From positions 1-37,354 of IMG/VR virus record IMGVR_UViG_3300042564_000114: a stretch of 37,354 nt of DNA, one strand, 5' to 3'. The translations under genes were made by a program, and so were the position numbers. The notes beneath the pieces are model-generated. The model was not told the DNA's origin, searched no databases, and saw only the letters and a program-made list of their open reading frames with translations. Shown piece by piece: positions 4,001 through 28,983 of the stretch; positions within the stretch are counted from its first letter, which is position 1; every line of letters starts with the position of its first letter. This DNA is from a virus.

Positions 4001-7000
4001 CCCATCGCAAGGTTGTCGCCACGGATTGTCTTTATATCCTTGAGATCTGGCTCCACCGCTGGATCGAACTCTTGATCGCCAACATCATTCTCCATAAGTG
4101 TAAGAATGTCTTTGCCGAATGTCGCAGAGATTTCTTTCTTTGACATATCGGCGTTTTTGATGTTTGCCCCGCCGAGAGAAATGGTGTTAACGTAAAAGCC
4201 CTTTTCTGTTGGTTGATATGTTATCTCCCGGACGAATTCGCTCAGCCTGTACCTTTGATTCTGTTGGTCTCCGGTAGTCCAAGCAACGCGATCAATGCCT
4301 TTGGTTTGAGCATAAGCAATAGCCCTCTTGAGAAGCAAGGAGACCCATGACTTTGTATCTTTAACGAATGGCGCTCGTGGGACTGCACCGCTTCCTTCAG
4401 ACTCGATGAACCTTTCAACCTCTTCGCGGCTTGGGAAGCCATCTTCAATCTCACCATTTGCTCGAACAATCTCCCACCCGCCATCAGTGGCTTGCCGTAT
4501 CTGCTGATTAGGAACATCAAATCCTTGCTCCCGACCTTCTTGCGCTCTTTGGCTCTGGATCTCCTCCAAGAACAAAACATCGTTACCGTCCGCATCCTTA
4601 CGCACATTTGTTCTCAGCCACCCAATGTGCTTACCATAGGCAACGTCACCAAAGTGAACGCTATCTTGATCTTTATATGGCTGGATGCTTGGATCTGTCA
4701 ATATGATTTCTGCATAGTCCATGCCATAGGGCAATGTCAGGCGCTCAGTGTTGTGCCTTGCCTTCAGCCTATCCTTTGCCCTGCCAAGAGATCTCTCATA
4801 GCCTCTAATGTGCTCACGGTTAAACACCGCCATCGAGGAGTTGTCCAATATCCACTGCTTAGCCTCCTCCATACTCATGGAGTCTGGATCTACTTTGTAG
4901 AGTTGTGGAAAGTCTTCCTCTAAATCATAAAAATCTGACCCGAACACTGCGTACTCAACATTATTTTTTTGCTCTTCTATTCGCTCTCGAACAAACTCTC
5001 TATAGTCCTCTTCTGTTGGGTCTTTGTATTCAGGTAAAGGGACAGATGGGTTATCAGTCAATATGATGTCGTTGAGCTTGACCTTGTTGCCTGCAATCCA
5101 GTTTAAGACGGTCTGCTTCTCGACCTTGCCTTCTTGCAGATCAAGCCACTCATTGATACCAGTCCACTCGATCTCAGCCTTCCTGATTCCAAGCTTTTCC
5201 TTATTCGAGTTGAGCCATGACTTCCACTGCTGGGCAGGCATAGATGTTTGCTTGACAGATTCAAAGCCACGCTCCATTGCAGAGTAGAAGGTCTCACCCT
5301 CTCTCTTGCGGCTGAACATCGGAGCCTTGGTGGTGTCTCCGCCTATCTCTATTTGATGCTCTCCGACCAATACGGCATAGCCCCTTTCAGATCCTTGCGG
5401 TGCGCTGTAGTAGCCATCAAAACCAGCTCTCAAGACAGCCCTCTCAAACGATGAGGAGATCTCTTCTTCTGTTGTGCCGCGAGCGCCTCTGGCTAGGCCA
5501 AGCGTATCGGCAACAGCATCGTAGATATTCTTGAGTTTGATTGTGTGAGCAACACTACCAACACCGGATTCTGGCTTGATGCCATAGCCAACATCCACAT
5601 AGGTGTATATGCGGTTTCTGATGTCGGCATTCGCTGGGTCTGTTAATCGAGACTTCTCTGCACCACGAAGGCCAGTCCCAAAGAATGCTGAGCTTAAAAC
5701 TCTCCGTGGTTCTTGGCTGAAGTGAACAGCTATTACCTCGATTGCCCCTTGCTTGGGGGTTCCGTACTCTGCGTCCGGTTCTCCCACAGAGATTTGGTTA
5801 GGTTGGAGTCTGCGTCCTGAGCGAGCAGCTCCTCTGGAGTCAATCCATTTATCGCGGATGGCGATGGCTTGCTCCGCAATGTCCGTAAGACGCTCACGCC
5901 TGCTCCTCCGAACATTTGCCCCTTCTCCACCTTGAAGTCCACTACCTTCGCCATATTCTGTCCCTTCTAAATAAGCTTCTCTGTTGTCAGGCCAGATAAA
6001 CTGGCTGTGGAAAGTTTGCGGCTGAGATACACGAATCTCTCCATCGTAGTCAAAAGACTCGACAGCGGATCTGATTGCCGCCCTGTACTCGTCATCAGTC
6101 AGCGTCTGCACATTGTCGTTATATGCGGAGAAGTTTCCGAATATCAACGCACCATCTCTCAATGTGTCGCTGTCTGCTTGTGGAACTCTATCAGAGATGT
6201 GCTGGCGTAGGTTGTCAAACTGAACCTCTGACATTCCAGACGGGATTTCAACTTTAACAAAACCAGCCTGATCTCCGGACGTTGTGTTGTTCTCGTCGTA
6301 AGCAACCATCGCCTTCTGATCTAACACGTAACCCATAACCTTGGCGAGAGTCTCCAACTGTTGAACAGACGCACCTGCTGGAGCATCAATCAATATGTTT
6401 GGGTTGACATCACCCTCATATCGACCGCTAGAGAATCTATAGGTAAACCCAGTCAGATCCAGTAGATTAAAAATCTGGGTCATCATCTTGTTGGCTAGGG
6501 CCTGAGTTGCGCGAGTCTTCTCCTCGACTGTCATCTCATTCCAGCGTGATGCAACCTCTTGGTCTGGGTTGGGAGCGACCTCGGCTAAAACTCCAGCAGA
6601 TCTTGTCGCTCTCTGTTGAGATGGTGCTGGCTTGCCGTACTTATCTTTCACGTACGCAACAGCAAGTTTGTAGTCACCTTCAAGATCATCAAATTCACCA
6701 GCCAAGGCTTTTTGCAGAACATCTTGATTGTCCGCATCTTCAAGATACCGAACTCTTCTGTGCCAAGGATAGTGAGCAGCAATGATTTGATTTGGCTGTA
6801 CGTCCTGAAGAACAAACGGGGCATCCCACTGATCTTTGGGAACAACAAACTCTAGCGTTGGCCTTGTCTCTACTGGGCCATAGAAAGGTGTCTCACCAGC
6901 GTAGATGGCTCTTGGCCCTTCAATACCCCTAGCGTATTTAATCGACAGGCCCTCCTTGGCGATCTTATCCAAGGACTCCGTATCTGTCTGATGGTATAGG

Positions 7001-10000
7001 CGAACATACCCATCTGGTATTGGTTGAGTGCCGAATTCCGCAGGAAGATCCATTCTCTTTTGAGAGAAGGATGGCAAACCTGTCGGCTTTGCTGGAGCTG
7101 TTGGCTGCTTCTGTTCAAAGTCCGCCAGAACGCTGACGATTGCCTGGCGTGCGGCGGCGACATCTGTCAACAGATTCTTGGAGTCCAGAGTCTGCTTGCT
7201 GCGGATCTTGTTCATTACTGAATCAAGGAAGTCCACAACAATTCTTGCGAGCTGCGTGAACATGCTTGGATTCTCATCGGCCATCATTTGCCAGAAGGAG
7301 GATTCACCGAATCTGTCTCCAACGATGTCGCCAATAGCTTCTTCCAGAATCAATGCTGGATCTTTCATGCCCTCTTTGTTGAGCTGCGCTCGATAGGCAT
7401 TCATGCCACCCTGATCCAGATAAGGCGACAGATGTTTTGTCAGTGCTGTATAAATTTCTTTATTACTGAACCGCAAAGCATGAACCATCTCATGGCCCAA
7501 GACCCGAATGTGTGGTCGGGTGCTGTTTACATTGATGAAGATTGTGTCTGATCCGTTGAGGACAGCGCCGTCTATGAAGTCAACACTTCCCTTCTCCACT
7601 GCAAAATATACGAGCTTCTTTCCGAACAGATCGGCAATGCGTTGCATGGAAGGGAGGCCGGGAATCTTTCCAGCAAGATTGCCGAGAGGTACTCTCGCTG
7701 CGGTAAAGCTGTCCGTGCTTCCTTGTCTTGCAAGGTATCCTCTGACATCCTTGTTGAGGTCGTCAACGGTTTTGAGTTTGCCATAAGAGAAGTCCCTTCC
7801 TGTTGTGGTTGTTTGCGGCGCTCTGCTTAGGCTGTACTTTGCGCCAGCACCAACACCAAGATTGCCTTCAACAATCCTCTTCATGCTGTTGATTGCGCCC
7901 ATGAGGTCGCCGTCATCAACCATCTTATTCAGCTTAACAACGTCCGCAAAGTCAAGGCCGCCGTCTTCGTCTGCTCTGTTAATGCGCTCCTTAACACGAG
8001 CCTGCATTACAGGGTCAACTGCTGGCTTTACTTCTTGCGGCTGCGCCCTGACTTCGACAGGCTGATTGCCACCGCCTGCTTCACCGCCGCCTGTTTGCTC
8101 TTCGGCTTTGACCCCCCGATCTTCCCCGACCGCTGGAACTTGTTCACCAGCTCCTTGACGTTGCTGCTCACCACCTTCTGTGACTTGCCTTGTTTGAGTG
8201 GCATCTGGTTCTCCCTGCTTGGTTAAGTATTCTTGCGCGGCGACAAGATCTTTTTGCAAGTCCGCAAGAGACTTGTTCTTTTGCTCAAGGCTTGCGCTCT
8301 TGTATTTCTTGTCAACAGCTTCCCGCTTCAACAACATCCTAGATGTTGAACCAGAAATCTGAGACATGAGGTTCTTTGCAAACAACGCACGTTTGTCAGG
8401 AGTTGCATTGTTGACATCAGCAACCGCATAACCGAGGTTGTTGATGAATGTGGTCAGTTGCTGAATAGCATCGTCAGCCGACTGCAAGACTGGGCCTATG
8501 TCCGCATTGTCTTTGTATTCGTTGTAGCGGCCTTGGTCTCTCTTGCTATCAGTAAAGTAAACCGACACGCCGCGCTTCTCTGTGACCTTCTGTACTCCAG
8601 CACCTTTAAGCGCCTTCAACTCAGCCAGCTTAGCTTCTCTGAAGTTGTTGTCTGTGATGCGGCTCTTACCGGCTACAGCAGTACGGATTCCGCTGATTAA
8701 GTTTTTGTCACCGCCTAGAGCCTCCAGCTCATTTGCTATCTCTGTGGCGCGAGCGCGAAGGGGAATCTGTTGTTGCTCTTCTTCTGGAGTGAGAGCAGCA
8801 ATAGCCGTCTTCTTGCCCTTGGTGGGCGTCACTGGGGCGGTAGGGGTAACGGTTGGCGCTACTACCGGAGCGGCGGCAGTTGTTACCGGAGCGGCAGGAG
8901 TTACTACCGGAGCTGCCGCAGGAGTTACCTCTGCTGGCTTCTTACGAGTCTCCACAAAATAGAACGTGCCGCCGCCTTCGGCTTTGGAGCGTTTACCCTG
9001 ACGGATTCGCGCCTCAAGTCCCTGTCCGACCAAGTTTGTTTGGGCGTAGCCACCGCTGCGCTGTCCTGTTTTTGCGTCTTTCGGGCCGAACAGAAAAGTC
9101 TCGGCAGCCTGGGGTGATGGGAATCTGTTCCCGACTGGGCCTTTGTCTGTTGTGATGCCGATCAATGGCTCAAAGCCTTGCTGTCTGGCAACCAAGTCTT
9201 CAGGAGACAGGGCGACCGTACCAGCCTGACCGCCTGCTGTCTCTGGCAGGATCACTGGCTGAGCTTCACCCTCTAGGGTGCGGGTCTCAAGATTGGGGGT
9301 TACGCTGGCTCGCTGTATGACGGGCTCGATTGCGCCCGTATCTCCGCCGACTGCGGTAGATGCTGTCTCGCCAAAAGCGGCAAGGACATCAGCCTCACGT
9401 TGCTTTCTGGTTTCAGCTCTGGCTTCAGGAGTTGGAGCCTCAAGGTCAACCAACATGCGCTGGGTAGCCAGTGCCTTGGTGACTACATTCTGGAATCTTG
9501 GATCGTCGCCAGACTCAATGCCGTTGGCCTGAAGGATTGGGCCAAGAGCTGGATCGTCGAACATCGAGTCGAACAGTTCCTGACGACCATCGTCGGATGT
9601 CATATCAGCCTGAGCTTGCTCCAGAATCTGTCGAACTCTGTCGGGGGATGTCTTGCCGCCACGGAAAGCGCCGACCGCAGCACCGATAGTGCCGCCGCCC
9701 AATCCACCCAAAGCAAAGGCGTTGATGTACTCGTTCATGGCATCTTCGCCAGTGAGATCTTTGCCTGCGCCGAAACGCTCAATGGCTGTCTGGAATAGTT
9801 CTTGACCACCCTCAATACCAACACCAGCCGCGCCGCCAATCAGCGCACGACCGGGGCGACCAGCGCCGGGGATGTTGATCTTGCCAGCCGCAACGCTCAA
9901 GCCAAGACGATCAACCGCCGCCTCAGACAGACCAGCAACAACGCCAGATCCAAAGATTCGGGCCAGATCGCCACCAGTCAGTTCGCGGCCTTCTTTTCCT

Positions 10001-10962
10001 GCCTGCTCTTCTGCCTCGCCATAAATGCCGCCAGTTGACTTGATGATGCCGGAGCCAACCAGAGCAGTACCAGCGCCAATGTTCTTGGCGACAGTCTTTG
10101 TAGCCTGCTTGAGCATCTGTTCCGTTGCAAACTCAGCGCCTTCTTTTTCAGCCAGCTTAGCGGCTTCCTTGGCGACCATGCCTTCGATCAGATTCTTGGC
10201 AACACCTTGAACGGCCTGCTTTCCAACAGCGCCAGCACCAGCACCAGCCAAAGCACCGGCAGGGCCAGCAGTAAGTCCACCGATGGCAGATCCAAGGGCG
10301 GATGTGGCGACCGTCTCGACGATGCTGCCGCCAAGATAACCAACGCCATACTGCGCCCAATCAACCAAAGCACCAAGATCGCCCTGCTTGGCCTTGTCCC
10401 AAGCCTTGGTCACATCGTCTGTGTCCTTGGCTGTTGCGCCGATCTCTTTCATTCGGCTGCCGTACTCTCTCAGGCCATAGTTCTTCAGCGAGGTCATGGC
10501 TCCGCCAGTGCCAAAGGCTTTCTCGCCAGCGGCTCCGGCAAAGCCAAGAGCGCCAAATGCTAAAGCTGGGGTCTGTGCCAGTGCTGTGCCGCCGCCTCGC
10601 ATGAAGTCGCCGGTATCTTCGGTTGGAGCTTTCTCAACTGGCGTAGTTGCTGGAGAAGACTTTATGCCCATCAGATCATTGACGCTGAACATCTCGCTGG
10701 GCTTTGCTGTCGCAGTCTCCGATGGAGGTGGTTGACGGACAGCAGATCCCATGAGATCGTCCAAAGAGAAAAGATTGGCCGAGCCAGTCTGTTGCATTGA
10801 AGCCGATGATGACGGGGTAGAGATGGCGGTTCTGGGTTTTACGTCCCCGCCGTAAGATCTAGGAAGAACCTCAGTTCTTAGAGCTTCATCTTTTGACAGA
10901 TAGAGAGAGTCATTTTCTCTGTCGATGTCCTCATCGCCAAATAACGAAAGACCTGTTGCCAT
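1063..10962 (-). CDS. Giant polyvalent protein (3299 aa): metallopeptidase, ADP-ribosyltransferase-like and LPD38-like domains
   Basis: At 9.9 kb this gene fills about a quarter of the window. By eye: tandem LFSLDDLMG/MFSVNDLMG motifs (64-99); hydrophobic Gly/Ala-rich region (about 125-430); Pro/Ala/Thr linker (about 678-713); coiled-coil region; HEMVH zinc motif at 1157-1161 with a later LEEAIGD, a gluzincin-like arrangement; an ART-like segment with RLYHQTDTESLDKIAKEGL (about 1315-1425); a second ART-like segment (about 1738-1875); a domain with FLEEIQSQ (about 1890-2430); and a long C-terminal region resembling LPD38 (about 2440-3299). This is the architecture of 'polyvalent proteins', thought to enter the host with phage DNA and counter defences. 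The ATG at 10962 follows AAAGAGG. Whether each enzyme domain is active is not established. Confidence 0.88.
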   Translation of the reverse strand: MATGLSLFGDEDIDRENDSLYLSKDEALRTEVLPRSYGGDVKPRTAISTPSSSASMQQTGSANLFSLDDLMGSAVRQPPPSETATAKPSEMFSVNDLMGIKSSPATTPVEKAPTEDTGDFMRGGGTALAQTPALAFGALGFAGAAGEKAFGTGGAMTSLKNYGLREYGSRMKEIGATAKDTDDVTKAWDKAKQGDLGALVDWAQYGVGYLGGSIVETVATSALGSAIGGLTAGPAGALAGAGAGAVGKQAVQGVAKNLIEGMVAKEAAKLAEKEGAEFATEQMLKQATKTVAKNIGAGTALVGSGIIKSTGGIYGEAEEQAGKEGRELTGGDLARIFGSGVVAGLSEAAVDRLGLSVAAGKINIPGAGRPGRALIGGAAGVGIEGGQELFQTAIERFGAGKDLTGEDAMNEYINAFALGGLGGGTIGAAVGAFRGGKTSPDRVRQILEQAQADMTSDDGRQELFDSMFDDPALGPILQANGIESGDDPRFQNVVTKALATQRMLVDLEAPTPEARAETRKQREADVLAAFGETASTAVGGDTGAIEPVIQRASVTPNLETRTLEGEAQPVILPETAGGQAGTVALSPEDLVARQQGFEPLIGITTDKGPVGNRFPSPQAAETFLFGPKDAKTGQRSGGYAQTNLVGQGLEARIRQGKRSKAEGGGTFYFVETRKKPAEVTPAAAPVVTPAAPVTTAAAPVVAPTVTPTAPVTPTKGKKTAIAALTPEEEQQQIPLRARATEIANELEALGGDKNLISGIRTAVAGKSRITDNNFREAKLAELKALKGAGVQKVTEKRGVSVYFTDSKRDQGRYNEYKDNADIGPVLQSADDAIQQLTTFINNLGYAVADVNNATPDKRALFAKNLMSQISGSTSRMLLKREAVDKKYKSASLEQKNKSLADLQKDLVAAQEYLTKQGEPDATQTRQVTEGGEQQRQGAGEQVPAVGEDRGVKAEEQTGGGEAGGGNQPVEVRAQPQEVKPAVDPVMQARVKERINRADEDGGLDFADVVKLNKMVDDGDLMGAINSMKRIVEGNLGVGAGAKYSLSRAPQTTTTGRDFSYGKLKTVDDLNKDVRGYLARQGSTDSFTAARVPLGNLAGKIPGLPSMQRIADLFGKKLVYFAVEKGSVDFIDGAVLNGSDTIFINVNSTRPHIRVLGHEMVHALRFSNKEIYTALTKHLSPYLDQGGMNAYRAQLNKEGMKDPALILEEAIGDIVGDRFGESSFWQMMADENPSMFTQLARIVVDFLDSVMNKIRSKQTLDSKNLLTDVAAARQAIVSVLADFEQKQPTAPAKPTGLPSFSQKRMDLPAEFGTQPIPDGYVRLYHQTDTESLDKIAKEGLSIKYARGIEGPRAIYAGETPFYGPVETRPTLEFVVPKDQWDAPFVLQDVQPNQIIAAHYPWHRRVRYLEDADNQDVLQKALAGEFDDLEGDYKLAVAYVKDKYGKPAPSQQRATRSAGVLAEVAPNPDQEVASRWNEMTVEEKTRATQALANKMMTQIFNLLDLTGFTYRFSSGRYEGDVNPNILIDAPAGASVQQLETLAKVMGYVLDQKAMVAYDENNTTSGDQAGFVKVEIPSGMSEVQFDNLRQHISDRVPQADSDTLRDGALIFGNFSAYNDNVQTLTDDEYRAAIRSAVESFDYDGEIRVSQPQTFHSQFIWPDNREAYLEGTEYGEGSGLQGGEGANVRRSRRERLTDIAEQAIAIRDKWIDSRGAARSGRRLQPNQISVGEPDAEYGTPKQGAIEVIAVHFSQEPRRVLSSAFFGTGLRGAEKSRLTDPANADIRNRIYTYVDVGYGIKPESGVGSVAHTIKLKNIYDAVADTLGLARGARGTTEEEISSSFERAVLRAGFDGYYSAPQGSERGYAVLVGEHQIEIGGDTTKAPMFSRKREGETFYSAMERGFESVKQTSMPAQQWKSWLNSNKEKLGIRKAEIEWTGINEWLDLQEGKVEKQTVLNWIAGNKVKLNDIILTDNPSVPLPEYKDPTEEDYREFVRERIEEQKNNVEYAVFGSDFYDLEEDFPQLYKVDPDSMSMEEAKQWILDNSSMAVFNREHIRGYERSLGRAKDRLKARHNTERLTLPYGMDYAEIILTDPSIQPYKDQDSVHFGDVAYGKHIGWLRTNVRKDADGNDVLFLEEIQSQRAQEGREQGFDVPNQQIRQATDGGWEIVRANGEIEDGFPSREEVERFIESEGSGAVPRAPFVKDTKSWVSLLLKRAIAYAQTKGIDRVAWTTGDQQNQRYRLSEFVREITYQPTEKGFYVNTISLGGANIKNADMSKKEISATFGKDILTLMENDVGDQEFDPAVEPDLKDIKTIRGDNLAMGGAGMREFYDVIVPSVAKEITKATVSPMYVVTADPYEGKRIQVVQQEGGKYQLVEVDNKVETPVSKMFDTYQEADNQRMARYEAESKGAKPQMGFIIPEKIQEQVANDGFPMFSRKRYEDQFSDVSPDTRERALKKGFYSPPTIKERLDHLRPNFAMRIVQGTFDKFRSVRDISQKAYLMLRMSAGSQDGAVSTLLHYGQVFNDDGALNVKKGTQGLLEILDPVGGEVDRFLLWIAANRAAALSKDERERFFSPEDIKSLRGLNMGTMKNGKSRLAIYAETLKNMNELNRSVLDVAKDTGLIDAEGYKRFSADIWYIPFYRQMEDDGSLSAAQTSSGAVGQYLSKKLKGSERPLNDLMENVLMNWTHILSASMKNQAAVETLASATQMGDIVTKLERQEKGAVKVMEKGKETFYRIDDEFLLTSLSAVAQMPSYGWGMDIMRGFKTTLTRFISLSPTFKINNLIRDSIQSIGLSELSRNPMGNVMQGWRAYKTERAEALAGGGLFAMGNAFDGDQSASVKRLLKTGVNKADILDTPEKVASFFGKIQDKYDEVSDASENANRLALYQQLRAKGASHLEASYAARDLQDFSLQGSWSAIRYAAQVLPYFNARLQGLYKLGRDGLDPTMQVLTGKASDTERQKAAKFATVTGAVVAAAMILYLTQKDDEDWKKREDWDRDAFFWFKLPGTDKAVRIPKPFEMGAIATLAERMTEQMIDSQVEGKVFAKRLLSVFHDTFAVNPVPQAIRPLYDIARNKDGFTDRPIESMGMERISVQNRVSPGTSGAAVALGTVNSLFAEFASKATGGAISTQSTQLSPIQYDYLLKGYLGWVGTVIQTASNVAATPFKDGASSRYERIDDFLVVGNYVKTVPQSQSRYVTSFYENAKDIATATSDVSHFLNSGQLEKAKEAFIEKSDKIALAKLYTKGTNMMSTIGKQVRIVEDDPKMSGAEKRLEIERLQQLRIQIAKDVEDMRIASKKK
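8826..8930 (-). repeat. Pro/Ala/Thr/Val-rich imperfect tandem repeat inside the giant gene
   Basis: The DNA shows imperfect tandem copies of GTTACTACCGGAGC-like units, encoding runs such as VTPAAAPVVTPAAP within a linker of about 35 residues. It separates the Gly/Ala-rich N-terminal part from the coiled-coil region. Low-complexity PA/PT linkers usually act as flexible, protease-accessible spacers. The near-identical units are candidates for copy-number change between relatives. Confidence 0.7.
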
Positions 10963-19029: not shown

Positions 19030-19980
19030 TTAAGATACGTTTCCTTGCCTTGTTCCTGTAGCAGGCCAAGTTACAAATGGGTTTCCAACAATATAGGAGC
19101 CAGTGCCGCCACCGCCACCGCCCGGTTGATAACCCCCCCCGGGAGCAGACCCACTAGCTGCGGCTCCTGCGGCTCCTGCGGCTCCCCTACCTCCACCAGC
19201 ACCACCACCACCTGCTGCTCGTGTAGGGCCAAGAACCCTAGGGCTGCCACCTGCTCCGCCACTAGAAGATGACCCGGGAGAGCCGGGGTTTCCCGGTAGC
19301 GATTGCGGACCTGGGACTTGTACGTTGTAAGCGGAACCTCCTCCACCTCCACCGCCATTATTTGTTCCTGCACCACCACCACCGCCGCCGCCACCTGCAT
19401 AGACTGAAAAACCCGGTTTTTGGTCATCTTTCGAATTAGAGCCACCGCCGCCACCACCGCCGCCACCCGATGCAATAGTGCCATTATTGGTTATAACAGT
19501 AGGTCGGTTAACATAGATGGCGTTGCCGCCACCACCACCACCACTGCCCGGTGTAGAAGTACCCTCAGGTCTATTCGCATTACCGCCACTACCACCGTTG
19601 CCGCCCATACCTTGGATTACACCGTTGTTGATAATCGTTACAGTGTCTCCGGGATTAAAGGCATTTGGCACAAGCATGGCATACGAGCCAGTAGATGAGC
19701 TTCCAACAGTTCCGGGAACAGTTACAGTTATGTCTGAAGTACCGGGAGAGTATGTTGGCCCTCTGTTGGAGTACACATCGTAATTGTTGCCTGACGCTGT
19801 CAATGAAATAGTAACTCTGTTTGACTTTCCATAAAAGTTTCCAAGAGAAATTGTTCCCGATGGAATGCCAGCCAAAGTTCGATATGAAGCTTGGTTAATA
19901 TTGGCAGTAGTTGTCCCAGGCTGTCCAAGCTCTACGTTAATAGCATTAAATGATATTGCGCCTGATGCTGGAAGCGTCAT
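19030..19980 (-). CDS. Gly-rich receptor-binding tail adhesin (316 aa)
   Basis: The N-terminus MTLPASGAISFNAINVELGQPG... IPSGTISLGNFYGKS is a widespread phage tail attachment segment, probably docking to the tail. After a beta-rich middle (about 55-115) the protein becomes extremely glycine-rich, with runs of seven to nine Gly broken by short polar loops (NNGTIAS, NSKDDQKPGFSVYAG, TNNGG). Polyglycine stretches of this sort form stacked polyproline-II-type helices in the phage S16/T4-type gp38 adhesins, where the loops between them touch the receptor. A collagen-like VPGPQSLPGNPGSPG segment is also present. It is probably the specificity determinant. Confidence 0.82.
   Translation of the reverse strand: MTLPASGAISFNAINVELGQPGTTTANINQASYRTLAGIPSGTISLGNFYGKSNRVTISLTASGNNYDVYSNRGPTYSPGTSDITVTVPGTVGSSSTGSYAMLVPNAFNPGDTVTIINNGVIQGMGGNGGSGGNANRPEGTSTPGSGGGGGGNAIYVNRPTVITNNGTIASGGGGGGGGGSNSKDDQKPGFSVYAGGGGGGGGAGTNNGGGGGGGSAYNVQVPGPQSLPGNPGSPGSSSSGGAGGSPRVLGPTRAAGGGGAGGGRGAAGAAGAAASGSAPGGGYQPGGGGGGTGSYIVGNPFVTWPATGTRQGNVS
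19090..19630 (-). repeat. Polyglycine-coding low-complexity tract in the adhesin gene
   Basis: On the plus strand this is a long series of CCACCACCACCGCC-like runs, encoding glycine blocks on the minus strand. The blocks vary in length and are separated by non-repeat loops. Such tracts are prone to slippage or recombination, which would change adhesin loop spacing without frameshift when three-base units change. Confidence 0.75.
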
Positions 19981-19983
19981 GTT

Positions 19984-20193
19984 TTAACTCTTGCCGAACA
20001 GATTGTGGCTGAGAAATCCGATAACAGAACTGATTGCAGAAACAATGGCTACGCCCATCCACACTCCGCCCTTGCCTTTGTTGACTAAAGCAATAAGCTC
20101 CTCAATAGAAGCCTCTAGCTTGTCTAGCTTTTTCTCTAGGTTCTCTACCTTGGCAGTCAGTGCGCCATAAGCAATTGGATCAATCTCGCTCAT
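19984..20193 (-). CDS. XhlA-like coiled coil with C-terminal membrane segment (69 aa)
   Basis: A short acidic start (MSEIDPIAYGALTAK), a clear heptad coiled coil (VENLEKKLDKLEASIEELIALV), then a C-terminal hydrophobic segment (VWMGVAIVSAISSVIGFL) and a basic end. This matches XhlA/haemolysin-type small phage membrane proteins, which accompany holins. It sits between the dioxygenase and the Gly-rich adhesin, separated from the main lysis cassette by five genes, so a holin-accessory role is possible but not certain. Confidence 0.7.
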   Translation of the reverse strand: MSEIDPIAYGALTAKVENLEKKLDKLEASIEELIALVNKGKGGVWMGVAIVSAISSVIGFLSHNLFGKS

Positions 20194-20201
20194 TTCTGTT
20201 C

Positions 20202-21317
20202 CTATCTAAAAAATTTTCCGAGCATCCAGCAGACTGCTGAGTATCGGGTTCCCTCTTCTATGTCTTCTACGCCGTGCATCACAAAGCTTGGGAAAACCAA
20301 AACTGTTCCCTTGCTTTGTGGCGGATACATTCTTTCGTGACCGTTTTGTAAATAAAATCTACCACCCTTAAAGTCGTCATTTAAAAATGCCAGTACGGTT
20401 AACTTTCTACACTCATCACCATGAGCAAGAAAAGTATCTACGTGGGACTGGTATCTCCCACCGGCAGGATAGATTAGAAATTCTGCTTGATTGGCGTGAG
20501 TGATGTCAAACTTAAATGACTGGTGATTTGCAGATAGACCGGCAGCAGTAAGCAATCCACCAAGATCTTTGTAGGTGGGCAACATGACCCTCTCCACATT
20601 CCTAATCTTTCTGTCTACAGTTCCATCACCAGATCCGATCACCGGAGGTTCTTTTTTAACTGACGAGTTTGTATATGAAGAAATAATAGAGTCGCACATT
20701 TCTGTACTCAAGATGTCTGTGAACATCCAATAGTTCAGCTCGTTGCTAGTAGTTGGTAAGTTTAAGCCGGGGCGCTTGTCGAACTTCCACTCTTTGTGTG
20801 GGCCATCAGCATCGACGTAATGCAAGAAAACCTGTGCTTGCCATTCGCCCTTGAATTTTTTTCTCCAGTGATACTTCTCCATTCCACGATAAAGCACGAC
20901 ATCACCAACATCCATAACGATTTTGGATGCGTTCTCTCCGCCCTCGTCACCCATATAGATAGGCCATGCCTCTCCATCAAAACCCAACGTCAGAGTTGCG
21001 CTTATCTCGCAAGATTCTCTATCAGTGTGGATATTCAGCTTTTCACCTTTTTTATACAGTCGAGCATAGCTGTAAGTTGGGTAAAGGCGCTTGCCCGTTG
21101 CCTTCTCAAAGTGAGGAAGAAGATCTACGAGAAGCTTGTCAAATGCCATAGCACCATGAATTGCTTCTGACGTTGGGCATTGAGTATCTTTGTGAGTTAC
21201 TTTTGCATCAACCAACCGTTTCAGTTCAGCGGCAAATTCATTGCAATTATTAACATCAAGGAAGCCCTTGAGGTGTACATACTTTTCAACAGTGAACTGA
21301 GACAGTTGATTACACAT
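20202..21317 (-). CDS. Tandem 2OG-Fe(II) dioxygenase, prolyl-4-hydroxylase-like (371 aa)
   Basis: Two non-identical dioxygenase domains fused head to tail. Domain 1 (about 5-170): His97-x-Asp99 in LNIHTDRES and a distal His150 in EKYHW, with the strand pattern of the double-stranded beta helix. Domain 2 (about 190-371): FLIYPAGGRYQSHVDTF gives His292-x-Asp294, FVMHGVED gives His348, and GTRYSAV gives Arg358, the usual 2-oxoglutarate contact. Both iron sites look complete. Family members hydroxylate prolines or other residues using iron, oxygen and 2-oxoglutarate. The gene is embedded in the tail-fibre module between two Gly-rich genes, which suggests protein substrates in the virion; free metabolites or host proteins remain possible. 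Confidence 0.88.
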   Translation of the reverse strand: MCNQLSQFTVEKYVHLKGFLDVNNCNEFAAELKRLVDAKVTHKDTQCPTSEAIHGAMAFDKLLVDLLPHFEKATGKRLYPTYSYARLYKKGEKLNIHTDRESCEISATLTLGFDGEAWPIYMGDEGGENASKIVMDVGDVVLYRGMEKYHWRKKFKGEWQAQVFLHYVDADGPHKEWKFDKRPGLNLPTTSNELNYWMFTDILSTEMCDSIISSYTNSSVKKEPPVIGSGDGTVDRKIRNVERVMLPTYKDLGGLLTAAGLSANHQSFKFDITHANQAEFLIYPAGGRYQSHVDTFLAHGDECRKLTVLAFLNDDFKGGRFYLQNGHERMYPPQSKGTVLVFPSFVMHGVEDIEEGTRYSAVCWMLGKFFR

Positions 21318-21517
21318 TAAGCCTCCACGGATGGATCAGGTTCGGGAATGGGTTTTATTGTTTGGTCAGATGGGTTATACCAAAACTGGTCTGCAACAAC
21401 ATTATTTTCACACGTAACCCAAAATAATGGTTCTGCAACCTCAAATTCTTGTTGTTGGACTTGTGCAACACGATAGCCAGTCTCTCTTGTCTCATTAGGT
21501 GAAATAAGTGCTTTCAT
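21317..21517 (-). CDS. Small fibre-module protein (66 aa)
   Basis: An unrecognised 66-residue protein: KALISPNETRETGYRVAQVQ at the start, then EFEVAEPLFWVTCENNVVADQFWYNP and a Pro-rich end (IKPIPEPDPSVEA). Small proteins with this FWVTC...ADQFWYNP-like block are often found immediately after a phage Gly-rich fibre gene. Its start overlaps the Gly-rich fibre's stop as TAATG, and its stop overlaps the dioxygenase start as TAATG, so the three genes are translated as a coupled group. A fibre accessory role is inferred. Confidence 0.68.
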   Translation of the reverse strand: MKALISPNETRETGYRVAQVQQQEFEVAEPLFWVTCENNVVADQFWYNPSDQTIKPIPEPDPSVEA

Positions 21518-22182
21518 TAATAAAACTCCTCAACAATAATAATTCCAGCTGTCCCCGCAAAGCCAGTTGTTGTTCCGCTCGTAGTACCACCACCTCCACC
21601 ACCTCCGTACCCAGTTGCAGTTTGAGTTGGTGAACCTTGAGTCCCACCAAAACCAAAACCAAAAGCAGTGTTTCCTCCACCATTAGTCGACCTATTTGTG
21701 CCAGTTACATTTGGCCCTGCGCCAGTACCAGGGCCGCCATTGATTCCAAATATATTTGGGCTCGGAGTAATAGAACCACCAGCTCCCGCAGTGCCAGCGG
21801 GAGAGGAAACACCACCCCCGCCTCCTGTGGCAGACATTAATGGACCAAAACTTGATGTTCCTCCGCTTGCTGTTGTACCGCCACCAGCACCAACAGTTAC
21901 AGTTACTGGGCCTGGTATTGCTGGCGCTTGGAAATAACCAAAACCAGCACCACCGCCACCGCCACTGCCACCGTTGTTTGGGGCTGCTGGGTTAGTTGGT
22001 GAATTTCCACCGCCGCCACCGCCACTTACAAGAGTTACTTTTACTGCTTTTAAAGCAGCGTCTTTTGTCCACGGCGATGGTGATGTATAAATTCTTGTAA
22101 CTACAGTACCTGGACTTGCCGAAGCTTGTGTAGTTCCATCAGGAAATACTACACCTGGTGCGCCAATAGTTGTTGTTGCCAT
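21517..22182 (-). CDS. Second Gly-rich tail fibre/adhesin (221 aa)
   Basis: A short N-terminal part (MATTTIGAPGVVFPDGTTQ, typical of phage fibre starts), a WTKDAALKAVKVTLVSGG segment, then repeated glycine runs with intervening loops, ending GTAGIIIVEEFY. Such a VxxxEFY-type ending is characteristic of Gly-rich phage tail proteins (Gly_rich-type domains). The ATG at 22182 has AAGGAG at ideal spacing. It is distinct from the 316-residue adhesin: shorter, with longer Thr/Ser-Gly linkers, and it contains PGPV and GPGTGAGPN segments. It probably forms part of the tail tip or side fibre. Confidence 0.8.
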   Translation of the reverse strand: MATTTIGAPGVVFPDGTTQASASPGTVVTRIYTSPSPWTKDAALKAVKVTLVSGGGGGGNSPTNPAAPNNGGSGGGGGAGFGYFQAPAIPGPVTVTVGAGGGTTASGGTSSFGPLMSATGGGGGVSSPAGTAGAGGSITPSPNIFGINGGPGTGAGPNVTGTNRSTNGGGNTAFGFGFGGTQGSPTQTATGYGGGGGGGTTSGTTTGFAGTAGIIIVEEFY

Positions 22183-22192
22183 GTTTTACTCC

Positions 22193-22909
22193 TTAACTGC
22201 CTGAAACTGAACCACCAGCGGTAATAGCTCCAGCAGATGAGATGGTGACAATTACCGTTGTTCCGTACTTTATAACAAGATTTCCACTCTCTTGCAGGAT
22301 CTTAAAGTTTGCTGTATTTAAAGATCCTGTGAGCGAAAGAACATTAGAAAATACCGGAGTCCCACTGAACGTCGGATTTCCAGAATGAGTTGTGTCGCCT
22401 GAAAATGTTGGCGTTCCTGTAAATGTCCCAGACAATGTGCCGCCGTTGTTTAATACCGGTACGCCGCTGAAGGTGGGATTACCAGAGAAGGTTGGGTTGC
22501 CAGAAAGTGTTGGGCTGCCGGTATAGGTTCCGGACATAGACCCGCCACCACTCAACGCAACAGTTCCACTAAATGTCTTGTTGCCTGATATGGTTTGAGT
22601 GCCATCGAGCTGGACAAAATTTTCAAGAGCAGTCGAAATCAACCGAAGTTCAACCTTGTCACCTGCCGTATATGCGCGAGCAGACGACCCTCCCTGCGCC
22701 CTAACAATAGTGAACGTATCAGATGAGCGAGTGGTGACTTTGACAAACTCTATCTGGTTGCTTGAGTTGACAAGAGCAACGTAGAAAAATCCGCTTGTTG
22801 TTGCCGGGAACAGAGAGCCTGTTCCTGACGCAACAGTCAACGACAGATCCCCGATGAGGATTGAAGACCCGAGGGTCGTGGTTGCGTTATTTGTAAATAA
22901 GACTGGCAT
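22193..22909 (-). CDS. Tail fibre protein with hexapeptide-like repeats (238 aa)
   Basis: A beta-rich N-terminal domain (about 1-100, MPVLFTNNATTTLGSSILIGDLSLTV and FFYVALVNSS), then about 14 short repeats built on SGNPTFSG / GTFTGTPTFSG, and a C-terminal ILQESGNLVIKYGTTVIVTIS segment. Repeats of six to eight residues with small and aromatic positions are typical of triple beta-helix or fibre-shaft regions. The gene is coupled to the preceding S74 fibre gene by TAATG, so it is probably a fibre segment attached to, or an alternative to, that protein. Confidence 0.8.
   Translation of the reverse strand: MPVLFTNNATTTLGSSILIGDLSLTVASGTGSLFPATTSGFFYVALVNSSNQIEFVKVTTRSSDTFTIVRAQGGSSARAYTAGDKVELRLISTALENFVQLDGTQTISGNKTFSGTVALSGGGSMSGTYTGSPTLSGNPTFSGNPTFSGVPVLNNGGTLSGTFTGTPTFSGDTTHSGNPTFSGTPVFSNVLSLTGSLNTANFKILQESGNLVIKYGTTVIVTISSAGAITAGGSVSGS
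22335..22600 (-). repeat. Imperfect short repeats in the fibre-shaft gene
   Basis: DNA encoding SGNPTFSG-type units, with copies of GTTGGGTTGCCAGA/GTGGGATTACCAGA-like words spaced 18-24 bases apart. The units vary by several bases, so they are diverged coding repeats and not a CRISPR or a simple microsatellite. They predict a regular beta fibre and are a place where unequal exchange could lengthen or shorten the shaft. Confidence 0.65.
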
Positions 22910-25056
22910 TACGCCCCCTCTTTCAGTTTTTCTTCGAGAACTATTACCTTGTCAGACAACTCTTTAATCGCCTCAATCAAAAGAGGCACAAGACGCTCAT
23001 ACCTGACAGTTAAATACTGCTCATCAATAGGCGCTGGCGCTACTGCTTGAGGCTGAACGGCCTGCACGGATTGAGCCGTTACACCAACCTCGATAACAGA
23101 CGCATCATATCCAAGAGACACTGCTACTTCGTTGGCGTGATACAGCATTGTCTTGATTGCGCGAACCTTGACCAATGGATCTTCAATGTCACCTATCTTG
23201 GTTTTCAGTCGCTCATCTGAATAATATGCCGTGATATTGTTGGTTGCTCTAATTTCACCAGCAGTAGTAGATGCAGCAGTTCCAACACCAATAGAATTAA
23301 ATTGTGAGTTTTGCGATGTGCTTGTAAAGGTAGCCGCTGAGCCTGAAGCATTGCCAGTTAAGTCTCCAGCAAACGCTGTGGCTGTGAGCAGTCCAGTGCT
23401 TGGGTTAAATGAAAGCTTAGTGCTGGAGGTCTTGACCGAGGAGAATGAACCTGAGTTCGATGTGGACAGTGCTGGGTAATACGTAGCATTGGTTGTCGTG
23501 TCGTCGGTGATGTTTGACCCAGCACTAGCCCATGCAAATGCTGATCCATCCCACTTCAGAAACGTATCAGTTGTTGTTGGCGCTACTGCAAATGCAGATG
23601 CTCCAGATCCTGTTTGATAAGCAATACGATTAGCTCCACCACCAGCAAGATTTGTTGCTGTTGTTGCTGTGTCTGCATTACCGACCAATGCCGCTGTAAT
23701 TGTTCCGGCAGTGAAGTTGCCGCTCGCATCTCTCTGGACGATTGCCAGCGCCGTGTTTGCGCTTGTCGAACTTGTCCATGTCGGAACAGATGCGCCGCCA
23801 GATGTCAGAACCTGTCCAGCAGTGCCAGCAGCGGTGAAGTTAAAAGATGTGGCTGTGCCGTAGGCAATACCACCGGCAACAGGAGTTGATGGGATCAAGC
23901 TATTTTTAACAGACTGAGCAACACCCGGCCTTACATCTGTGTCCGACAGGTACTGTGGGTGGTCATCATCTGTTAGGCCAGACAGATTTCCGTGGTCTGT
24001 AATCAAAGATGGAGCCACTCCAGCAGAAGAGATACTCCTGAGGTCTGTGATGCCCCTCAATCTTGTATGAGGAGTATTTGAATACGAGTTATTGGATTGA
24101 AAGATCAGCTTGTACAGCGGCCTGAACTCAACAGATGGGAATCCGGGCAAGTCCAAATCCTCAAACACAGCAGCTTCTGCATTGTTTAGCGTGGACAGAT
24201 TTGATTGGCTGATTACGCCAACTACCGGGTAGTTAAGGTTGTTGGTCGCAAGAATCCACGTACATGTGAAGTCTGTATTGGTTACATCAACAAGAGTCCA
24301 AACACCGCCAGTAAACAAGTTGTACTGTGGCCTAGCTGTTCCCTGCTTAACGGGATAGTCAGTTGGAGATGTGATTCTCCACTCACTTCCTTCAAGATAC
24401 AGAATTGGTATGCGAGCTGGGCTGCTGAGATCTTGCTCAAATGTATTTGCTGTTGGAGTGTTGGACGAAACAATGTCAATCTGCATGTCCTCGTCAAAGA
24501 ACGTGCCGCCTTCTATCGTTATCTGTGCATCTGCATTTGCACTTCCATCGCCGGATAAAGTGTATCCACTGGCTGCAAATCCATTTGCTATTGCTGCGCC
24601 GCGAGTTCTGTGAAGATACTCGTGCGTCTGCCAGTCAAGAGTAACGCCATGACGTTCGTCGGCAAAGTAAACAGCCTCGTTGTTTGTTGCGTTCCAATAA
24701 ACATAGGATGTTGGCGCATCTTCATCCCATGTGAAGAATGACATCTTTGTTGACAACACGCCAGACGAGCTGAAGTAGATGTAATGAAGGCCAGCAGTGT
24801 CTGGAATGACGACTGTCTGTGCTGTGGTGTAGGTGTACTTCTCACCCTTGCACCAGACAACAAAGTTCGCTCCAACAGGGGTAATCGTAAATGTGCGTGT
24901 ACCCGCATTAAACGAAATCGTTGACTGCGCTATATTGGCATGGCCCATAGGCTCGCCCATGACAGTCTGCGACTCATTGAGACTGGTTAGGTTGGCATCC
25001 ATCTCCGCATTGGTTAGTGGAGAACCCTTGCCCGAGCGAGTTGTAATTGCGGCCAT
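22909..25056 (-). CDS. Tail fibre/spike with C-terminal S74 intramolecular chaperone (715 aa)
   Basis: The N-terminus MAAITTRSGKGSPLTNAEMDANLTSLN is the usual phage fibre attachment segment. A large beta-rich middle follows, including DHGNLSGLTDDDHPQYL, a common fibre repeat, and Thr/Ala/Ser-rich shaft sequence. The end is a Peptidase_S74 chaperone: YYSDERLK with candidate Ser613 and Lys618, the dyad that cleaves it off after trimer folding, then VRAIKTMLYHANE, EVGVTAQSVQAV and YERLVPLLIEAIKEL with a final coiled coil. Cleavage would release about 100 residues. The ATG at 25056 has only a weak ribosome site. Confidence 0.9.
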   Translation of the reverse strand: MAAITTRSGKGSPLTNAEMDANLTSLNESQTVMGEPMGHANIAQSTISFNAGTRTFTITPVGANFVVWCKGEKYTYTTAQTVVIPDTAGLHYIYFSSSGVLSTKMSFFTWDEDAPTSYVYWNATNNEAVYFADERHGVTLDWQTHEYLHRTRGAAIANGFAASGYTLSGDGSANADAQITIEGGTFFDEDMQIDIVSSNTPTANTFEQDLSSPARIPILYLEGSEWRITSPTDYPVKQGTARPQYNLFTGGVWTLVDVTNTDFTCTWILATNNLNYPVVGVISQSNLSTLNNAEAAVFEDLDLPGFPSVEFRPLYKLIFQSNNSYSNTPHTRLRGITDLRSISSAGVAPSLITDHGNLSGLTDDDHPQYLSDTDVRPGVAQSVKNSLIPSTPVAGGIAYGTATSFNFTAAGTAGQVLTSGGASVPTWTSSTSANTALAIVQRDASGNFTAGTITAALVGNADTATTATNLAGGGANRIAYQTGSGASAFAVAPTTTDTFLKWDGSAFAWASAGSNITDDTTTNATYYPALSTSNSGSFSSVKTSSTKLSFNPSTGLLTATAFAGDLTGNASGSAATFTSTSQNSQFNSIGVGTAASTTAGEIRATNNITAYYSDERLKTKIGDIEDPLVKVRAIKTMLYHANEVAVSLGYDASVIEVGVTAQSVQAVQPQAVAPAPIDEQYLTVRYERLVPLLIEAIKELSDKVIVLEEKLKEGA

Positions 25057-27849: not shown

Positions 27850-28013
27850 GCGGCCTCTTTAAACAGTTTGATGGTGATCTCGTCCTGCACGGAAACCTCG
27901 TCGTCAGTTGGCTTCTTTGGCTTTGGCTCGTCTACGACCACCTCGTACCCCAACTCCAGCAGCTTCTCGTCGTAAACCACTATCCTGCCCGTGCGCTTGT
28001 TTCTCATGAACAT
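27846..28013 (-). CDS. 55-aa protein, paralogue of the glycosyltransferase N-terminus
   Basis: A short gene read by eye: ATG at 28013 with AGGAG six bases upstream, and a TGA that overlaps the next gene's ATG. It begins MFMRNKRTGRIVVYDEKLLE, continues LGYEVVVDEPKPKK, and has an acidic-then-hydrophobic tail ending FKEAA. Its first 24 residues resemble the start of the glycosyltransferase just upstream (see that entry); LLELGY is identical. About two thirds of the gene overlaps the 3' end of the glycosyltransferase in another frame. The function is unknown. Confidence 0.72.
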   Translation of the reverse strand: MFMRNKRTGRIVVYDEKLLELGYEVVVDEPKPKKPTDDEVSVQDEITIKLFKEAA

Positions 28014-28938
28014 GTGATTCTCCTAGCTGTAAGACTTGCTCTGGCTTGACTGACTGCAAAGACTCGCAGTTTTTGATGCACCTGTCGTCCCAGCCATGAT
28101 CTCTCTGCCAGTAGCATCCAGCGCATGGCATGTCAGAGCTTATCCCAACGACAGATTCTCCGCAATCAAAAATGAAGTCTCTCGTGGTTGGGCCAAGTAC
28201 CGCCACCGCTGGAGTTCCCAGCAGTCCAGCAATGTGAACCATGCCACTGTCATTCCCAAGCAGGATTGTCGCACCGCCAATCAATTCAAGGATTTCGGCC
28301 ACTGGCCTGTTCCAATAAACCTGGCTGGATGGGATTCTGTCGAGCAGATCCTTGTCCTTTCCAGAGCCTATGACCATCACAAGATAGCCATGATCTGTCA
28401 ACAGATTCGACATATCTGTCCATCTGTTCTCGCTCCACGAGCGAACAGGCCAGATACTGCTTGGTGCAAGCACTGCAATCTTCTGTGATCTGTCGAAGCT
28501 CTTTACCTTGGCGGGTCTTGCTGCTTGGCAGGCTGGGATCTCGTAATACCTACCGATGTTCTTGATGTACCAGTTCGGTCTTGAGCCAAAGCTCTTGTCT
28601 CTACCAGCCCTTAGCTGGCCTGCGTAATCAAGGTTTGCATCAGCGGAATAATCTGATTCCTGACAAATACTGACATTTGGATGTTCGGCGACAGACAGCC
28701 AGTCAACGTGTCTTGTGTGGAGTGTGACATTGAAGCCTTGATCCGCTACACCGCAGGCTGCATACAGCGCACAAACCGCATCACCAATACCAATGGCTGA
28801 GACGTAGAAAGAGACGTCCTTCGTCTTTCTCGGAGGATCTTGCGGATCATCCTCATACTCTTGATAGTAGCCAAGCTCAAGCAAGGATCTATCGTAAGCA
28901 TGAAGCTTATTGGTTTTGGTGTTGCGTAAATAAAGCAT
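27904..28938 (-). CDS. GT9/heptosyltransferase-like glycosyltransferase with fused N-terminal peptide (344 aa)
   Basis: Residues about 1-35 resemble the neighbouring 55-aa protein. The rest is a glycosyltransferase family 9 (ADP-heptose heptosyltransferase-like) core: VSAIGIGDAVCALYAA at the N-terminal Rossmann domain, APSSIWPVRSWSENRWTDMSNLL, then GNDSGMVHIAGLLGTPAVAVLGPT, the classic sugar-nucleotide donor motif, and a Cys-rich GCYWQRDHGWDDRCIKNC end. It may modify host surface sugar to block superinfection, or glycosylate a virion protein. Start at ATG 28938 is chosen for the paralogy; no ribosome site precedes it, as the base right before it is a terminator T-run. The C-terminal tail from about residue 308 is overprinted by the 55-aa gene. 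Confidence 0.82.
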   Translation of the reverse strand: MLYLRNTKTNKLHAYDRSLLELGYYQEYEDDPQDPPRKTKDVSFYVSAIGIGDAVCALYAACGVADQGFNVTLHTRHVDWLSVAEHPNVSICQESDYSADANLDYAGQLRAGRDKSFGSRPNWYIKNIGRYYEIPACQAARPAKVKSFDRSQKIAVLAPSSIWPVRSWSENRWTDMSNLLTDHGYLVMVIGSGKDKDLLDRIPSSQVYWNRPVAEILELIGGATILLGNDSGMVHIAGLLGTPAVAVLGPTTRDFIFDCGESVVGISSDMPCAGCYWQRDHGWDDRCIKNCESLQSVKPEQVLQLGESHVHEKQAHGQDSGLRREAAGVGVRGGRRRAKAKEAN

Positions 28939-28966
28939 AAAAAGGGAGGAGGCCGAAGCCTCCCCC
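28939..28966 (-). terminator. Rho-independent terminator behind the capsid gene
   Basis: On the minus strand the RNA would read GGGGGAGGC-UUCG-GCCUCCUCCC then UUUUU. The stem has nine pairs including one G-U, closed by a C(UUCG)G tetraloop, an exceptionally stable loop, and the T-run follows one base later. It begins 18 bases past the major capsid stop. T7 also has a terminator right after its capsid gene, so capsid transcript should exceed downstream tail transcript. Tail genes then depend on read-through or on an unseen promoter. Confidence 0.87.
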
Positions 28967-28983
28967 AATTCCTCGGCAACTGC

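Follow-up and report, generated by a model that had tools for sequence, protein, structure and literature searches.

A tandem 2OG-Fe(II) dioxygenase-like protein in a phage tail cassette and its putative role in proline hydroxylation of the receptor-binding tip

The glycine-rich receptor-binding-tip protein encoded in this DNA of an aquatic bacterial virus is, with a probability that we put at about 0.55, the substrate of the phage's own tandem 2OG-Fe(II) dioxygenase-like protein, with proline as the residue hydroxylated. Both are encoded in the window, i.e., the whole stretch of 37,354 nucleotides that we analysed. An earlier note on this DNA had taken the collagen-like Gly-Pro text of the phage adhesins as a sign that they are modified by the enzyme. 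Self-modification is supported by linkage to the tip gene, a doubled proline content of linked tips, and relatives of the enzyme in peptide-modification loci, but the collagen-like reason given for it is not. The 2OG oxygenases of aquatic phages are numerous, unexplained, and usually discussed in terms of host metabolism (PMC3037559, PMC9602691). With a specific candidate substrate, a candidate class of residue, and three cassette genes suitable for co-expression, this old question can be tested directly.

Two iron triads in one protein

The enzyme gene (20202..21317, minus strand) encodes 371 aa in two domains. Domain 1 (residues 1-185; 20763..21317, minus) carries H97-D99-H150 together with R86, R152, Q160, and Q162 and matches PHROG_2954 (E=2e-47). 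Domain 2 (residues 186-371; 20202..20762, minus) carries H292-D294-H348-R358 and matches PF13640 (E=1.5e-15). The two HxD...H sites and Arg358 reported earlier are at exactly these positions, and both iron triads and R358 are invariant in alignments of 37 and then a broader 57 sequences; therefore, the tandem active site is genuine. In a 47-row enzyme alignment, identity to the window protein ranges from 50 to 93%. Pfam detects domain 2 only. Among the PHROG families, PHROG_2954 corresponds to domain 1, PHROG_61 to domain 2, and PHROG_3531 to the whole protein, with residues 13-365 aligned to profile positions 12-361 of 362 (E=4.4e-34). By these profile matches, the tandem layout is already catalogued, under the name ferrochelatase. 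The PHROG_3531 tandem protein of cyanophage ACG-2014f, labelled ferrochelatase, has the same full-length two-domain layout (E=4e-34; 28% identity by tblastn). Unlike the window gene, the tandem protein genes of ACG-2014f and S-T4 have no annotated tail gene alongside.

In domain 2, the 2OG-binding arginine, expected about 9-11 residues past the last histidine, is R358, invariant in the 57 sequences. In domain 1, a canonical 2OG-binding Arg or Lys is absent 9-11 residues after the last histidine across the same 57 sequences, all of which have glutamine (Q160) at this place (H+10); its cellular, cyanophage, and pelagiphage relatives have Q, C, Y, M, or W there. An invariant R152 is found at H+2, directly after the last histidine (HWR). 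The missing canonical arginine of domain 1 counts against hydroxylation of the tip.

The AlphaFold2 model of the enzyme (pLDDT 85.8) has two double-stranded beta-helix (DSBH) domains, and their mutual arrangement is not fixed by the model (pTM 0.53). With a predicted DSBH core and an HxD...H triad in both domains, the protein is, by sequence and model, a member of the 2OG-Fe(II) dioxygenase superfamily. VIA-align comparisons of the AlphaFold2 model placed domain 1 close to the P. putida P4H (Z 18.0, 168 aligned, 2.8 Å) and PHD2 (Z 17.6, 174 aligned, 2.7 Å), and domain 2 close to PHD2 (Z 17.1, 176 aligned, 2.7 Å) and the PBCV-1 collagen prolyl hydroxylase (Z 16.9, 163 aligned, 2.6 Å). However, non-prolyl enzymes such as SnoN score as high as the prolyl hydroxylases for domain 1, and therefore the fold by itself cannot name the substrate. 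The Phold authors had noted that many phage 2OG oxygenases are similar to EGLN3 (PMC12774648). In profile searches, the best solved relatives of domain 2 are prolyl 4-hydroxylases, with the B. anthracis-type P4H (3ITQ/5HV0) at E=1.2e-7 as the best of 12. Domain 2 thus appears prolyl-4-hydroxylase-like from its profile and predicted fold, and prolyl hydroxylation itself is putative. It shares the fold and the HxD...H motif with a basic residue with 3ITQ/5HV0, PBCV-1 vCPH (5C5T), and the P. putida enzyme (4IW3). These are single-domain chains, whereas the window enzyme has two domains, and its proposed substrate is a Gly-rich tip rather than collagen.

Two DSBH domains per chain are also found in the ribosomal prolyl hydroxylases OGFOD1 and Tpa1, both among the top Foldseek matches of the enzyme model. 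In OGFOD1 and Tpa1, only the N-terminal domain is known to be catalytic, and the second domain is not known to have an iron triad. The window enzyme differs in that both triads are intact and invariant and that its C-terminal domain is the more canonical of the two. Domain 1 could be a pseudo-enzyme without catalytic activity that keeps the substrate in place while domain 2 alone is catalytic, a mirror image of OGFOD1/Tpa1. These tandem relatives and the occupation of the arginine place by Q160 speak for such an arrangement; however, the H, D, and H of domain 1, along with R86, R152, Q162, and H166, are conserved in phage and cellular members, which is unusual for a dead site. We consider a pseudo-enzyme possible, though less likely than not. 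Either version is compatible with hydroxylation of the tip by the phage enzyme, of which the pseudo-enzyme is a variant.

A three-gene cassette encoding tip, F1, and enzyme

The tandem enzyme is closely linked to one type of tail gene. When relatives were collected with the enzyme alone as the query, 72 distinct tandem enzymes had a long enough upstream region to be scored. A Gly-rich gene was present within three genes upstream of 68 of them, and a small protein, F1, within two genes upstream in 61 of these 72 enzyme-selected loci; enzymes were counted as distinct by exact peptide difference only, and neither count consists of fully independent cases. The baseline for a Gly-rich gene among other genes of the same loci was 50/775 (6.5%), and a downstream Gly-rich gene accompanied 10 of 80 tandem enzymes. 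The surroundings of the cassette vary, with different fibres upstream and different genes downstream, and therefore the tip, small protein, and enzyme appear to be kept or moved together.

In the window, the upstream partner is the 221-aa Gly-rich tip protein (21517..22182, minus; PF21722), which ends in VEEFY and is the proposed substrate. F1, a 66-aa tail-fibre-assembly-like protein (21317..21517, minus), is conserved between the tip and the enzyme. Downstream are a 69-aa protein (19984..20193, minus) with weak similarity to PHROG_5211, which is not a conserved neighbour, and a second Gly-rich, GP38-like adhesin of 316 aa (19030..19980, minus; PF05268, E=1.7e-6). A tail fibre with a C-terminal S74 intramolecular chaperone (PF13884) is encoded at 22909..25056 on the minus strand. 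The enzyme was previously described as sitting between two fibre genes; both fibres are indeed nearby, but the 66-aa and 69-aa genes intervene, so neither is an immediate neighbour. The upstream fibre is the conserved partner, while the GP38-like gene adjoins the enzyme only in close relatives (L001, L002, L003, and L010) and was rejected as a general partner.

The tip is predicted to have the TNF-like plus glycine-rich fold of the cyanophage Pam3 gp24 type. Its AlphaFold2 model (pLDDT 85.8, pTM 0.80) aligns with the Pam3 fibre 7YPX (gp24) at Z 22.4 over 181 residues (2.1 Å, 29% identity) and with the Bxb1 tail tip at Z 17.6, and its sequence profile also matches the Pam3 fibre (E=4e-12). S16 gp38 is not in the VIA list for the tip, an absence that proves nothing, and no close relatives of the window tip protein were found in GenBank. 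Pam3 gp24 forms trimers and contains a TNF-like domain along with a glycine-rich one, the latter proposed to bind the host receptor, and it is assembled by a dedicated chaperone, gp25, encoded next to it (PMC9608196). The order of a tip gene followed by an assembly-type gene is the same in the window, with F1 in the slot of gp25. In contrast to the window, no relative of the enzyme was detected in Pam3. Pam3 gp24 also folds in E. coli without an enzyme of this type (PMC9608196), which weakens the case for hydroxylation.

We infer that F1 may be a chaperone for the tip. A long F1 variant (135 aa) weakly matches phrog_4912, tail fiber assembly (E=2e-4); this variant has no BLAST similarity to Pam3 gp25, and no solved relative was found for the 66-aa protein. 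In several loci (L015:9535-10008, L023:1737-2210, L027:9537-10001, and L188), a protein of ~157 aa with PHTD/PHAD...H is encoded between F1 and the tandem enzyme. It has no Pfam or PHROG match and, judging from its motif, is perhaps another oxygenase; L036 also has a small HxD...H protein in the same slot.

The fibre texts quoted earlier are present, VPGPQSLPGNPGSPG in 19030-19980 and PGPV and GPGTGAGPN in 21517-22182, but the description of the fibres as collagen-like does not hold: strict G-X-Y runs extend to no more than 3 in either protein, a length reached by 46% and 58% of shuffles. Since G-X-Y runs are at chance in both window fibres, collagen-like fibres were rejected as the substrate; the Gly-X-Y repeats that would mark a neighbouring substrate of a collagen-modifying P4H were not found in them, and collagen repeats are also at chance in tips as a class. 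Long genuine G-X-Y proteins are encoded in some contigs, both with and without the enzyme and in no conserved place, and most are nearly proline-free (G-[YFI]-S type) or have proline in the X and not the Y position. Almost proline-free G-[YFI]-S proteins of 41 to 80 units occur in L037:11703-13817, L062, L076, L107, L118, and L301, which have the enzyme, and in L104 and L208, which have none. They are encoded two genes downstream of the tip/F1(/enzyme) cassette.

Proline content of tips with and without the enzyme

Tips linked to the enzyme contain about twice as much proline as tips without it. Using F1 as the search query, we collected loci with and without the enzyme. In the first set, with proline scored over the C-terminal 190 tip residues, the content was 7.1% in EEFY tips with the enzyme and 6.6% in other tips with the enzyme, compared to 3.5% in tips without it (p=1e-4 for the difference among non-EEFY tips). 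A second set, fetched later (41 loci with and 12 without the enzyme), gave 6.0 versus 2.5% (p=1.4e-6), with proline the most different of the 20 residues. Each enzyme-free tip was also compared to the three enzyme-linked tips most closely related to it, and 34 of 39 comparisons had the same direction (p=1.8e-6). The enzyme was found elsewhere on two of 30 records of "enzyme-free" contigs (L070 and L102), which were then reclassified. GC bias was rejected as the cause, as the contrast is followed neither by GC nor by how much proline other proteins contain.

Differences are also seen within single genomes. Where two tips are adjacent (L033, L034, and L168), the EEFY tip has 7.4-9.5% proline and its VVIEY neighbour 3.2-3.7%. 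Locus L226, in which two enzyme-type genes lie between two tip cassettes, is a natural within-genome contrast, with 5.8% proline in the EEFY tip and 1.1% in the VIIEY tip. The low-proline tip of L226 itself adjoins an enzyme, which counts against hydroxylation.

Tip lineage is a partial confounder of the proline contrast, much of which lies between lineages. Proline partly follows lineage (EEFY tips are rich and VEW tips poor), and within the VEY class, tips with and without the enzyme have 5.5 and 3.7% proline, a small gap with overlapping values. This lineage dependence and the small VEY gap weaken the hydroxylation reading. So do proline-rich tips with no enzyme on the contig, found in L046, L057, L058, and L063 (all fragments) and in the Pam3 record (5.8% proline, no match to the enzyme). 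The context of the added prolines is a further point against it, since no fixed motif surrounds them apart from a hairpin; proline is followed by glycine in 31% of cases in tips, equal to background glycine. The hairpin motif QAPAIPGPV spans tip residues 85-93 (21904..21930, minus) and includes P90 and P92. In the [IL]-P-G-P context, these are the most conserved prolines of the hairpin, and in an alignment of 85 EEFY tips, each of the two columns is proline in 92%. The candidate tip peptide across the hairpin is QAPAIPGPVTVTV.

The enzyme may instead modify the tip on Asn, Asp, Lys, or some other residue, with the extra proline as a lineage trait. The superfamily includes Asn, Asp, Lys, and Arg hydroxylases, domain 1 is tied to no residue, and L015, L023, L027, and L036 have a further small HxD...H protein in the cassette. 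However, no residue besides proline is consistently enriched across both locus sets. In the first set, asparagine was 4.2 and 3.6% in the two enzyme-linked groups versus 4.5% without the enzyme, and lysine was 1.4 and 1.1% versus 1.0%. Together with the prolyl hydroxylases that are the closest solved relatives of domain 2, this makes modification of another residue unlikely.

We regard a substrate other than the tip as quite improbable. It could be F1, another chaperone, or a host protein such as EF-Tu or a ribosomal protein, with adjacency to the tip resulting from cassette transfer. F1, the frequent companion of the enzyme (61/72 loci), has a Pro-containing tail (PIPEPDPSVEA), and the structure 4IW3 shows the P. 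putida P4H, one of the structural neighbours, together with EF-Tu. Against F1, loci without the enzyme also commonly encode this protein, with its Pro-containing C-terminus retained, and it is missing in L033-L035 even though the tip and the enzyme are still adjacent.

Domain 1 relatives and the ferrochelatase label

Domain 1 belongs to the family that PHROG 2954 names "ferrochelatase." We rejected a ferrochelatase identity, as domain 1 is a predicted DSBH domain and the Pfam ferrochelatase model matched neither the window protein nor the phage "ferrochelatases" at E up to 10. Phage proteins with this name (PHROG_2954/3531; L351:7246-7866, L352:6348-6914, and L355:4974-6062) contain HxD...H and HWR and are homologous to domain 1. 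The name is likely a propagating misannotation, and it has been used in recent ecology papers. In a pelagiphage study, every "ferrochelatase" was beside a 2OG oxygenase and was interpreted as iron metabolism (PMC9599517), and a later study reported PHROG_2954, as ferrochelatase, to be seasonally enriched (PMC11561400). A role as an auxiliary metabolic gene, in which the window enzyme would redirect the nitrogen or iron metabolism of the host by 2-oxoglutarate drawdown or by acting on a small molecule, has been suggested for oxygenases of cyanophages and pelagiphages (PMC3037559, PMC9599517). For the window enzyme, it is very improbable, as it leaves the 68/72 linkage to one tip gene and the proline contrast unexplained and its iron/heme part depends on a "ferrochelatase" related to a DSBH domain.

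Stand-alone relatives of domain 1 are present in bacterial genomes and retain the signature Y-x-R-x-Y, HxD, C-E/Q-x-S/T, HWR, and Q-x-F-x-H, which is common to pelagiphage, cyanophage, and cellular proteins. In Mycobacterium persicum (L337:4319-11867), a domain-1 homologue is fused to TPR repeats. Its gene immediately follows those for a LanM synthetase and an NHLP-type precursor and precedes an ABC transporter gene, and it is likely a lanthipeptide tailoring enzyme; the assignment of this locus as a RiPP cluster is reasonably firm. Other homologues (L338, L342, L343, and L348) are near an Asn-synthase gene of the lasso-peptide-locus kind, with a sulfotransferase also nearby in L348 and distant domain-2-like neighbours in L338, L342, and L343; these loci may be RiPP clusters as well. 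The occurrence of domain-1 relatives in cellular peptide-modification loci favours, by analogy, a peptide substrate.

The two domains also occur as separate neighbouring genes in pelagiphage HTVC023P, cyanophage S-TIM4, L038-L041, and L170-L172. Domains that are fused in some genomes and encoded by adjacent genes in others argue for joint action. The two domains may have different substrates. In HTVC023P, gp65 ("2OG-Fe(II) oxygenase") and gp67 ("putative ferrochelatase") correspond to the two domains of the window enzyme as separate nearby genes; unlike the window fusion, they are split in two with another oxygenase gene in between. The pair is shortly downstream of three Gly-rich proteins with 6-8% proline.

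Proposed mechanism and implications

We propose that the tandem enzyme acts with the upstream Gly-rich tip and the intervening small fibre-assembly-like protein. The tip chain would be synthesised and then held by its assembly protein, and domain 2 would hydroxylate tip prolines before or during trimerisation. The candidate prolines are those of the conserved [IL]-P90-G-P92 hairpin and of the variable loops. Domain 1 may act as an additional peptide oxygenase or help to position the substrate, and the added hydroxyls could rigidify the tip or supply receptor contacts.

More broadly, we tentatively suggest, at slightly less than even odds, that phages possess a widespread and unrecognised system that hydroxylates their own tip prolines during assembly. 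The "2OG oxygenase + ferrochelatase" pairs seen in pelagiphages and cyanophages would then be the same enzyme in split form. If so, genes at present classed under auxiliary iron or nitrogen metabolism would be virion-maturation genes, the ferrochelatase label in recent ecological work (PMC9599517, PMC11561400) would be corrected, and the window would provide an example of a phage that alters its receptor-binding tip by chemical modification. Neither the enzyme family nor its fold is new. In the literature that we searched, which excludes most subscription journals and thus does not establish priority, there was no precedent for hydroxyproline in phage tail fibres, for a tip-dedicated enzyme, for its co-variation with proline, or for the reinterpretation of the "ferrochelatase."

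Two further features of the window lie outside the cassette. A GT9 heptosyltransferase-like gene (27904-28968, minus; PF01075, E=2.6e-16) adjoins the major head protein gene, an odd location for an LPS-type glycosyltransferase. A single open reading frame of 3299 aa (1063-10962, minus) probably encodes a giant internal virion protein.
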